A stretch of 61,503 nucleotides of DNA. Origin: a virus. The DNA is taken from the IMG/VR virus record IMGVR_UViG_3300005347_000207, positions 1 through 61,503 of that record; one strand, 5' to 3'. The position numbers and the translations under genes were made by a program. How positions within the stretch are numbered: the stretch's first letter is position 1; each line of letters begins with the position of its first letter. Shown here in pieces: positions 32,216 to 60,747 of the stretch. The notes under the pieces are model-generated. The model was not told where the DNA came from, did no database searches, and saw only the letters and a list, made by a program, of their open reading frames with translations.

Positions 32216-32559
32216 CCGATCAGGTCGTCCTCGTCCTCAATGGCTGCAACCTCGCCGCGATTTTCGGCGGAAGGCAAGCCCGTGTTCTCTTTCTGTTCTA
32301 GCCCTACCGGTGCGTCAGTTCCGGACGTAGGATCGGCGGATGGTTTACGAGGTGTTAACGATTTGCTCTTGCGCGGCCGCGCTTTCTCGATCTCCGACTC
32401 AATGAACTTGCGGAAGTCGGCCGCCAACTTCTCCGGGTCGCCGCCATTCATGCTGAGGTGCTGCCAGCCCGTCTTCGGGTGGTGGGCGCGGGCGACGTAG
32501 CGCTGGTTTGGATGCACCTCTTCCGAGGTCTCGTAGATGACGATCCGCATGGCGCTCAC
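32212..32559 (-). CDS. Hypothetical protein with -DDLIG tail
   Basis: 115 aa, not recognised. A short folded N-terminus (IVIYETSEEVHPNQRYVARA, then GWQHLSMNGGDPEKLAADFR) precedes a disordered Lys/Pro-rich linker and the tail IEDEDDLIG. Overlaps both neighbours by 4 nt. Shape resembles the next gene upstream, so the two may be distant paralogues. Confidence 0.75.
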   Translation of the reverse strand: MSAMRIVIYETSEEVHPNQRYVARAHHPKTGWQHLSMNGGDPEKLAADFRKFIESEIEKARPRKSKSLTPRKPSADPTSGTDAPVGLEQKENTGLPSAENRGEVAAIEDEDDLIG

Positions 32560-59502: not shown

Positions 59503-59529
59503 TATTCGCGACCCGCCTCGCTAGGGTGA

Positions 59530-59555
59530 GGGCTCCTTCGGGGGCCCTTTTCTTT
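59530..59555 (+). terminator. Rho-independent terminator after repressor
   Basis: GGGCTCC and GGGGCCC pair around a TTCG tetraloop (6 bp plus one G-T), followed by TTTTCTTT. Overlaps the likely TTG start of the methyltransferase gene, so termination and translation start are physically linked. Confidence 0.9.
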
Positions 59556-60747
59556 GTCGCGTGCCTACTACAACGAGATCGATCGGTACGCCGCGGCCTG
59601 GCTCCGCAACTTGATCGCCGAGGGCGTAATCGCGCCCGGCGACGTGGACGAGCGGGACATCCGAGATGTCACTCCAGGCGACCTCGCCGGCTACACCCAA
59701 TGCCATTTCTTCGCCGGCATCGGCGTCTGGTCCTACGCTCTCCGTCGTGCCGGCTGGCCGGACGAGCGGCCCGTCTGGACCGGATCCTGCCCTTGCCAGC
59801 CTTTCAGCTCGGCAGGCTCAGGAAAGGGGTTTGCTGACGAGCGGCACCTATGGCCGTTCTGGCTTCATCTCATCCGCGTCGGCCGCCCTGATGTTGTCTT
59901 TGGCGAGCAGGTTGCGAGCAAGGACGGCTTGCTGTGGCTCGATCTTCTATTCGACGACCTTCAAGGAGAGGGCTACGCCTTCGGGCCGCAGGATTCCTGC
60001 GCTGCGGGCGTCGGTGCGCCGAACATCCGCCAACGACTTGGGTTCGCCGCTCGGGAGTTGGGGAACTCCGACGACGTCAGAAGCCGGCGGCACGCCGGAA
60101 GCCTTCTTGCACCGGAAGGAAGCATTGGGCGGCCGATGTGGCGTGTCGTTGACTGCGTTGAACCTCCAAGCGGTATTGGCGGCCTGGCCCACGCCGACAA
60201 CTCCGAGCGGCGGGCAAACTGTCCCGGAGGGAACGACGGCGACCGGGAGGCGCCCCAACGGGACGAAGGCGACGGTGACACTCGGCAACGTAGCGACATT
60301 GTCTACATGGCCCACGCCGAAGAGTTCGGATGTCGCGAACGGTTGGCTGGGCCACATAGACGGACGCCGTTCGAACCTGAACGACACAGTGCTGCTGGCG
60401 TCGCCCTGGGCGACGCCAGCGAACAGAGACTATCGAACGCCGAACTTGAAGCCCTACTCAGAGCGGGGCGGGGGAGCGAAGGGCGAGCAGCTCAACAACC
60501 AGGTCGTACATTCTGGTCCGATCCTGACTGGCTCTTCTGCCGAGATAGCAAATGGCGCCCGGTTGAACCCGGCACATTCCCGCTGGTTGATGGGGCTCCC
60601 GCCCGTATGGGACGCCTGCGCGCCTACGGAAACGCGATCAACGCGGAGGACTTCGCCGGCCGCATCCGCGATTTCCTCGAGGCGGAGGCAGCCGGCTTCA
60701 CTCCTGGCCTGGGCGCTGGCGGCCTAGACGAAGACCTGATCGGCTGA
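59554..60747 (+). CDS. DNA cytosine-5 methyltransferase
   Basis: 397 aa. AdoMet motif CHFFAGIGVWSYALRRAGW, catalytic SCPCQPFSSAG (Cys81), FGEQV (motif VI variant) and GVGAPNIRQRL. TTG 59554 is the only start that keeps the conserved YNEID region; it lies at the end of a terminator. After about residue 160 this frame reads LAHADNSERR, VYMAHAEEFG and FWSDPDWLFCRDSKWRPVEP, then GRLRAYGNAINAED, a known methyltransferase C-terminus, ending in GLDEDLIG. The +1 frame over the same DNA reads another known C-terminus; see the separate entry. Confidence 0.88.
   Translation: MSRAYYNEIDRYAAAWLRNLIAEGVIAPGDVDERDIRDVTPGDLAGYTQCHFFAGIGVWSYALRRAGWPDERPVWTGSCPCQPFSSAGSGKGFADERHLWPFWLHLIRVGRPDVVFGEQVASKDGLLWLDLLFDDLQGEGYAFGPQDSCAAGVGAPNIRQRLGFAARELGNSDDVRSRRHAGSLLAPEGSIGRPMWRVVDCVEPPSGIGGLAHADNSERRANCPGGNDGDREAPQRDEGDGDTRQRSDIVYMAHAEEFGCRERLAGPHRRTPFEPERHSAAGVALGDASEQRLSNAELEALLRAGRGSEGRAAQQPGRTFWSDPDWLFCRDSKWRPVEPGTFPLVDGAPARMGRLRAYGNAINAEDFAGRIRDFLEAEAAGFTPGLGAGGLDEDLIG
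60041..60727 (+). other. Overlapping +1 frame encoding alternative methyltransferase C-terminus
   Basis: In the +1 frame relative to the methyltransferase, open from before 59666 to TAG 60725-60727, the DNA reads GSWGTPTTSEAGGTPEAFLH, LAAWPTPTTPSGGQTVPEG, STWPTPKSSD, SPWATPANRDYRTPNLKPYS, GEQLNNQVVH and LNPAHSRWLMGLPPVWDACA. The repeated W-x-TP and the LNPAHSRWLMGLPP block are hallmarks of phage cytosine methyltransferase target-recognition regions as I recall them. A +1 shift near 60030-60048 (CGACTTGGG) would fuse the catalytic domain to it. Confidence 0.7.

Follow-up and report, generated by a model that had tools for sequence, protein, structure and literature searches.

The final part of the window, by which we mean the whole 61,503-nucleotide stretch of viral DNA analyzed here (IMG/VR record IMGVR_UViG_3300005347_000207), raises the question of whether about one kilobase of phage DNA encodes a single cytosine methyltransferase or two proteins in overlapping frames and, if two, how they are related. 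A preliminary description of this DNA had reported two frames open together for about 700 nt, from about position 60040. Its coordinates and its peptides for both frames were correct and both frames are indeed open, but the extent was underestimated: frame 0 (alpha) and frame +1 (beta) overlap by approximately 1,060 nt, which takes in the catalytic half of frame 0, before position 60040, as well. The +1 frame has no stops from about 59630 onward, and the GC content at the locus is 65%. The features of the locus are collected in Table 1. A terminator-like hairpin with a TTCG loop and a T run (59528-59549) ends four bases upstream of the TTG of alpha, so that transcription of alpha may depend on a promoter of its own, or the leader of alpha may include the hairpin.

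Table 1. Features of the overlapping locus, in positions of the window
Feature	Position	Strand	Basis
Alpha, cytosine-5 methyltransferase catalytic subunit (frame 0, TTG start, 397 aa)	59554..60747	+	Pfam, PHROG_363, M.HhaI profile, AlphaFold model
Alpha motif I, HFFAGIGVWS	59704..59733	+	Sequence; columns invariant or nearly so in alignment A4
Alpha motif IV, PCQPFS with catalytic Cys	59791..59808	+	Sequence; invariant in alignment A4
Alpha motif VI, GEQV replacing ENV	59902..59913	+	G117, E118, Q119 invariant; aligned to M.HhaI ENV region
Alpha motif VIII, RQR	60028..60036	+	R159 and R161 invariant
Alpha residues 182-319, variable, predicted unstructured; same DNA as beta recognition region	60097..60510	+	pLDDT, codon-position rates
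Alpha motif X, YGNAI	60625..60639	+	G359 invariant; predicted C-terminal helix 364-379
Beta, overlapping gene (frame +1, first ATG at 59666, 353 codons, stop ends at 60727)	59666..60727	+	PHROG_1008, near-absent +1 stops, start/Shine-Dalgarno enrichment
Beta WPTP module, residues 174-177	60185..60196	+	Sequence; W174 nearly invariant
Beta WPTP module, residues 215-218	60308..60319	+	Sequence; lineage-A W-x-T-P counts
Beta WATP module, residues 248-251	60407..60418	+	Sequence; W248 nearly invariant
Beta motif IX-like end, LNPAHSRWLMGLPPVW	60563..60610	+	L300, P302, W307, L308 invariant; weak hhalign placement

Alpha matched Pfam DNA_methylase (E=4.6e-8), PHROG_363 (E=8e-73, residues 3-378) and a profile of M.HhaI (E=2e-15). 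AlphaFold was run with family alignments from which three rows taken from annotated phage records were left out, and the resulting model of alpha matched the m5C methyltransferase structures of M.HhaI, M.HaeIII and DNMT. Alpha thus has motifs I, IV (PCQ), VI, VIII and X together with the fold of the cytosine-5 methyltransferase class. The model is folded at residues 1-180 and around residues 361-379, the helix of motif X, while residues 182-319 have pLDDT values mostly of 32-47 and lack secondary structure over most of their length. No recognition domain was found within the alpha chain, where residues 182-319 are predicted to be unstructured, and a pattern search for an RLQGFP-type motif IX gave no match in frame 0 of the overlapping class, while several of the controls have one.

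The DEDLIG tail of alpha had been described as phage-wide, and three other ORFs of the same phage do end in D[ED]DL[IV]G, the four endings lying at 2276 (+), 52056 (+), 60747 (+) and in a minus-strand ORF ending near 32556. The tail is not family-wide: the DEDLIG ending is present in 1 of 118 alphas, the window's own, and the other alpha homologues lack the acidic D[ED]DL[IV]G tail. By analogy with the tail of SSB, the acidic ending common to these four ORFs may be a shared recruitment peptide.

Each frame was searched separately and homologues were found for both, not for one frame only; tblastn with the C-terminal halves of the two frames found 177 and 193 phage records. Both proteins have homologues across their whole length (PHROG_363 for alpha, PHROG_1008 for beta), which bears out the earlier statement that both protein types occur in phage databases. 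A total of 325 loci was assembled from viral contigs fetched by the frame 0 protein or by the +1 protein, from bacterial genomes and viral contigs fetched by a +1 profile, and from a few annotated phages. The +1 homologue lay at +1 relative to frame 0 in all 325 (165/165 and 160/160), in keeping with the earlier suggestion that these are two frames of one ancestral DNA, and alpha was present in every one of the 240 loci fetched with beta queries.

Most genome records show one of the two genes only. PHROG_363 and the phage 'DNA cytosine methyltransferase' correspond to alpha, and such records list alpha alone, without beta; thus alpha is listed and beta missing in the records of N15 (gp58) and epsilon15 (cytosine methylase). 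The sole gene annotated at this place in Pseudomonas phage PMG1 (L003, 2620-3381) is the +1 frame, called 'DNA methyltransferase' in RefSeq, and alpha is unannotated. Both frames are annotated in the record of E. coli phage K1ind1, with beta as 'Mte8-like protein' (PHROG_1008).

A few loci carry interruptions. Alpha is interrupted by one internal nonsense codon, and beta is uninterrupted, in L142, L262, L103, L159, L211 and L223; in L142 and L262 the codon is a TAG at the very position of the PCQ glutamine and could be explained by decay or by reading of TAG as glutamine. In L146 and L287 there is a +1 stop in the first, weakly constrained part of beta (alpha residues 38-60) and the +1 frame is open afterwards, so beta starts later in these loci or is shortened. 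In L287 the middle region is, in addition, much longer. The alpha nonsense codons and the early +1 stops may represent decay, error or a later start.

In the window alone, approximately 1% of synonymous shuffles leave the +1 frame open, which is moderately improbable. These shuffles keep the alpha protein and its codon usage, and the expectation assumes each gene's own codon use. The test for stops used a non-redundant set of 53 loci that had been retrieved with frame 0 only, and hence not chosen for their +1 frame. Over reference residues 40-360, one +1 stop was observed compared to approximately 177 expected from synonymous shuffling, and the +1 frame was fully open in 52 of the 53 loci compared to 1.5 expected. 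Just outside this interval +1 stops were in excess (99 versus 57 expected at residues 20-40, and 65 versus 37 at residues 360-400), and stops in frame +2, counted in the wider set of 118 loci, were near expectation (1461 versus 1276). The mirror test, in which the +1 codons were shuffled and which was run after removal of three more loci whose frame 0 was broken, found frame 0 open in 55/55 and 52/52 loci, with none expected. Each frame is thus protected from stops beyond what the protein of the other frame explains. Purifying selection in one frame only, the result that would have spoken against the preliminary description, was tested for, and both frames proved to be under selection. The comparative support for an overlap, itself larger than first noted, is overwhelming.

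Searching with a profile of alpha brought up methyltransferases further removed from the family. Those whose catalytic signatures differ (L335, L338-L344) have a +1 frame with an LMGxPxxW end and, in most, WPTP or WATP as well. The 24 canonical enzymes had no +1 frame with LMGxPxxW, and their +1 stops were at expectation. Two further lineages (B and C), again fetched by frame 0 alone, have median GC contents of 0.52 and 0.51; the +1 frame was open over residues 110-230 in 53 of 60 and 58 of 59 of their loci, compared to 3.5 and 4.3 expected. Beta profiles can be aligned between all three lineages, at E values of 3e-19 to 8e-55, a similarity partly imposed by the homology of alpha. In a catalytic-domain tree, produced by a quick search on chosen rows, one branch separates the overlapping from the canonical enzymes (SH-aLRT 98), so that a single origin suffices. 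We think it fairly likely that these loci represent a clade of phage and prophage cytosine methyltransferases, of at least three divergent lineages and one origin, with catalytic and recognition subunits in overlapping frames of one kilobase and with the sharing of tasks between the frames preserved since that origin. We found no general report of such an overlap in the open-access literature searched.

Rates were compared among codon positions in related pairs. Position 3 of frame 0 varies most in residues 1-120, as in an ordinary gene, and position 1, which is the third position of the +1 codons, is the most variable at residues 170-270 and 345-360; all three positions are conserved at residues 320-345. 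For residues 170-220, at 6-15% divergence, the rates were 0.286, 0.107 and 0.095 for positions 1, 2 and 3, values that rest on close pairs since the recognition region aligns poorly in distant ones, and amino acid identity in such pairs was 66% in frame 0 and 85% in frame +1. Synonymous-site conservation, a comparison proposed with the preliminary description, gave a matching result, since synonymous change in alpha at residues 80-170 is approximately half of that in the non-overlapped start (pairs at 25-33% divergence) and the second half shows +1 constraint. These rates show that frame 0 governs the evolution of the N-terminal half, and frame +1 that of residues 170-320. The two further lineages repeat this switch of codon-position rates.

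Beta also has a start of its own. In lineage A, an in-frame +1 ATG occurs at residues 20-45, after the last stop, in 51 of 53 loci (26 expected), with the ATGs clustered at residues 30, 32 and 38, and an ATG preceded by a Shine-Dalgarno-like site occurs in 35 of the 53 (5 expected). The corresponding numbers in lineage C are 47 of 59 (18 expected) and, with a Shine-Dalgarno site, 30 of 59 (2 expected). An ATG is likewise enriched in lineage B (49 of 60; 22 expected), but Shine-Dalgarno sites are few; a clear one is missing in most lineage B loci and in about a third of those of lineage A, and the window's own beta ATG has a weak one upstream. The enrichment of both ATG and Shine-Dalgarno sites indicates that beta, the inner gene, is read from its own translation start.

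The sequence of beta was analyzed for clues to its function. It matched PHROG_1008 (E=3e-29, residues 10-331) and also PHROG 31772, both of which are labeled DNA methyltransferase. Lineage A betas contain from 0 to 5 W-x-T-P motifs, most of them 1-3, with a spacing of approximately 38 aa, within the recognition region (alignment A3), and this variable number suggests modular growth or exchange of specificity units. The variability of beta peaks where a recognition domain would sit. Using hhalign, the end of beta in lineages A and B fell on motif IX (RLQGFP) of the canonical enzymes, in a short alignment with an E value of 0.06-0.08 and a probability of about 1%, and the best alignment of lineage C beta was elsewhere. 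AlphaFold modeled beta alone with confidence at residues 70-120 only, a fold comparison against the PDB gave no match, a profile search against PDB sequences found nothing, and Pfam searches of beta family members gave scattered weak matches and no family. The low-confidence model might fit a subunit that folds on its partner, and is no evidence by itself. Beta is proposed to act as the recognition domain, although its confidently folded part is small and it has no match in the PDB.

Comparisons across the homologues demonstrate that both frames are under selection, that beta starts independently, that constraint is divided between the frames and that the origin is shared and old. Our reading is that the locus is likely to be a split cytosine-5 methyltransferase formed from two overlapping, simultaneously translated genes, and both proteins are probably made together. 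Alpha would supply the catalytic domain, with motifs I, IV, VI and VIII followed near the C-terminus by motif X, while its middle, the site of the normal target-recognition domain, is predicted to be unstructured. Beta, produced by internal initiation approximately 35 codons into alpha, would provide the recognition region, in which the number of WPTP modules varies, as well as the end resembling motif IX. We infer that beta binds alpha, sets its specificity and is required for activity, the two polypeptides assembling into an active enzyme that would modify phage or host DNA. The order of motifs along the DNA would be canonical, with I-VIII in frame 0, the recognition region and IX in frame +1, and X in frame 0 again. 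Such a locus may have arisen through two compensating frameshifts that moved the middle of a normal gene into the +1 frame, both readings then being kept.

Beta could instead be a genuine overlapping gene that serves some purpose apart from methylation, such as inhibition, protection of the phage or regulation of alpha, as its lack of a fold match or Pfam family, and the location of its best-folded part in an N-terminal core (residues 70-120), would allow. Since alpha accompanies beta in all 240 beta-fetched loci, the motif IX-like end lies at the very place where alpha is missing this motif, a structured recognition domain is absent from alpha, and variability is concentrated at the place expected for such a domain, we regard this as rather unlikely. 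Programmed ribosomal frameshifting, with a start in alpha and a shift to +1 near residue 165 that yields a fused enzyme carrying the +1 recognition domain, would explain why constraint passes from frame 0 to +1 near residue 170 and would place the catalytic motifs, recognition region and motif IX in canonical order on one chain. The fusion would lack motif X, however, which is in frame 0, and the conserved beta start codons with their Shine-Dalgarno sites also argue against it. Moreover, the +1 frame is stop-free from residue 40, approximately 130 codons ahead of the switch, and alpha synonymous sites are constrained at residues 80-170, so that, contrary to the frameshift reading in the preliminary description, the +1 frame is constrained as protein upstream of any plausible shift point. 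We consider such frameshifting improbable, and expression by frameshifting only is unlikely, though some frameshift product may be made alongside the two proteins.

The two distinct C-termini in two frames had further suggested that a frameshift or single indel would swap the recognition domain, alternate alleles then differing in which C-terminus joins the catalytic domain. That claim did not hold, since every one of the 325 loci carries the two frames together, stops are avoided in both, and beta has its own start; with none of the loci in another register and both frames open in nearly all, swapping of specificity by indels is contradicted and can be given very little probability. The remaining alternative is that high GC content and a conserved frame 0 protein together keep the +1 frame open as a by-product, with no protein made from it, and a GC of 65% and the approximately 1% of shuffles of the window's gene that stay open are compatible with this. 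The deficit of stops across loci, however, is more than 100-fold even though the shuffles preserve the alpha protein and codon usage, it persists at about 50% GC and is absent from canonical methyltransferases, and in the second half the variation is greater at codon position 1 than at position 3. The synonymous shuffles, the lower-GC lineages and the canonical controls thus rule out that high GC opened the frame by chance, and the probability of a by-product is close to nil.

By analogy, the nearest known enzyme to the proposed split methyltransferase is M.EcoHK31I, in which the gene for the small subunit likewise lies within that for the large one, in a different frame. This active m5C methyltransferase (YGGCCR) consists of two polypeptides, with motif IX in the small one (PMC3404938), and the title of Lee et al. 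1995, cited in PMC3404938, gives two proteins as required for in vitro methylation. As here, its large subunit has motifs I-VIII and X and its second polypeptide has motif IX, which in beta is a weak, correctly placed alignment. The large subunit of M.EcoHK31I is predicted to hold the recognition domain (PMC3404938), whereas no structure is predicted for the corresponding region of alpha, whose evolution follows the +1 frame; furthermore, M.EcoHK31I is part of a restriction-modification system and the present locus is a phage gene. Since its recognition domain is reported in a different place, namely the large subunit, and the comparison is by description and not by sequence, we set the locus beside M.EcoHK31I as a variant and not a member of that type. 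M.AquI is also a naturally split m5C methyltransferase of two polypeptides with the break in the variable region, but in that enzyme both motif IX and motif X belong to the small subunit (PMC3404938). At the present locus, motif X remains with alpha, inside whose gene beta is encoded. The overlap of Rz and Rz1 in phage lambda is much shorter than that of alpha and beta. Rz/Rz1 are nested genes whose cooperating proteins are read from two frames of one DNA (PMC9409062), but these proteins and their function are unrelated to alpha and beta.

If the split-enzyme reading is true, alpha and beta would, in our judgment, rank with the longest and most widely distributed dual-coding pairs of bacterial viruses, with both products forming one enzyme, and M.EcoHK31I would be a known representative of an enzyme class that is widespread and, for the most part, annotated only in half. 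It would explain several phage 'DNA methyltransferases' that seemingly have no recognition domain, and PHROG_1008, now named by association only, would become a specificity subunit. The methylation targets of such phages could not then be assigned from alpha alone, and alpha expressed alone should be inactive or non-specific. The locus is also an unusually clear natural case of two frames sharing constraint, each half of the DNA evolving mainly under a different frame, in an arrangement that is old and common in phages.
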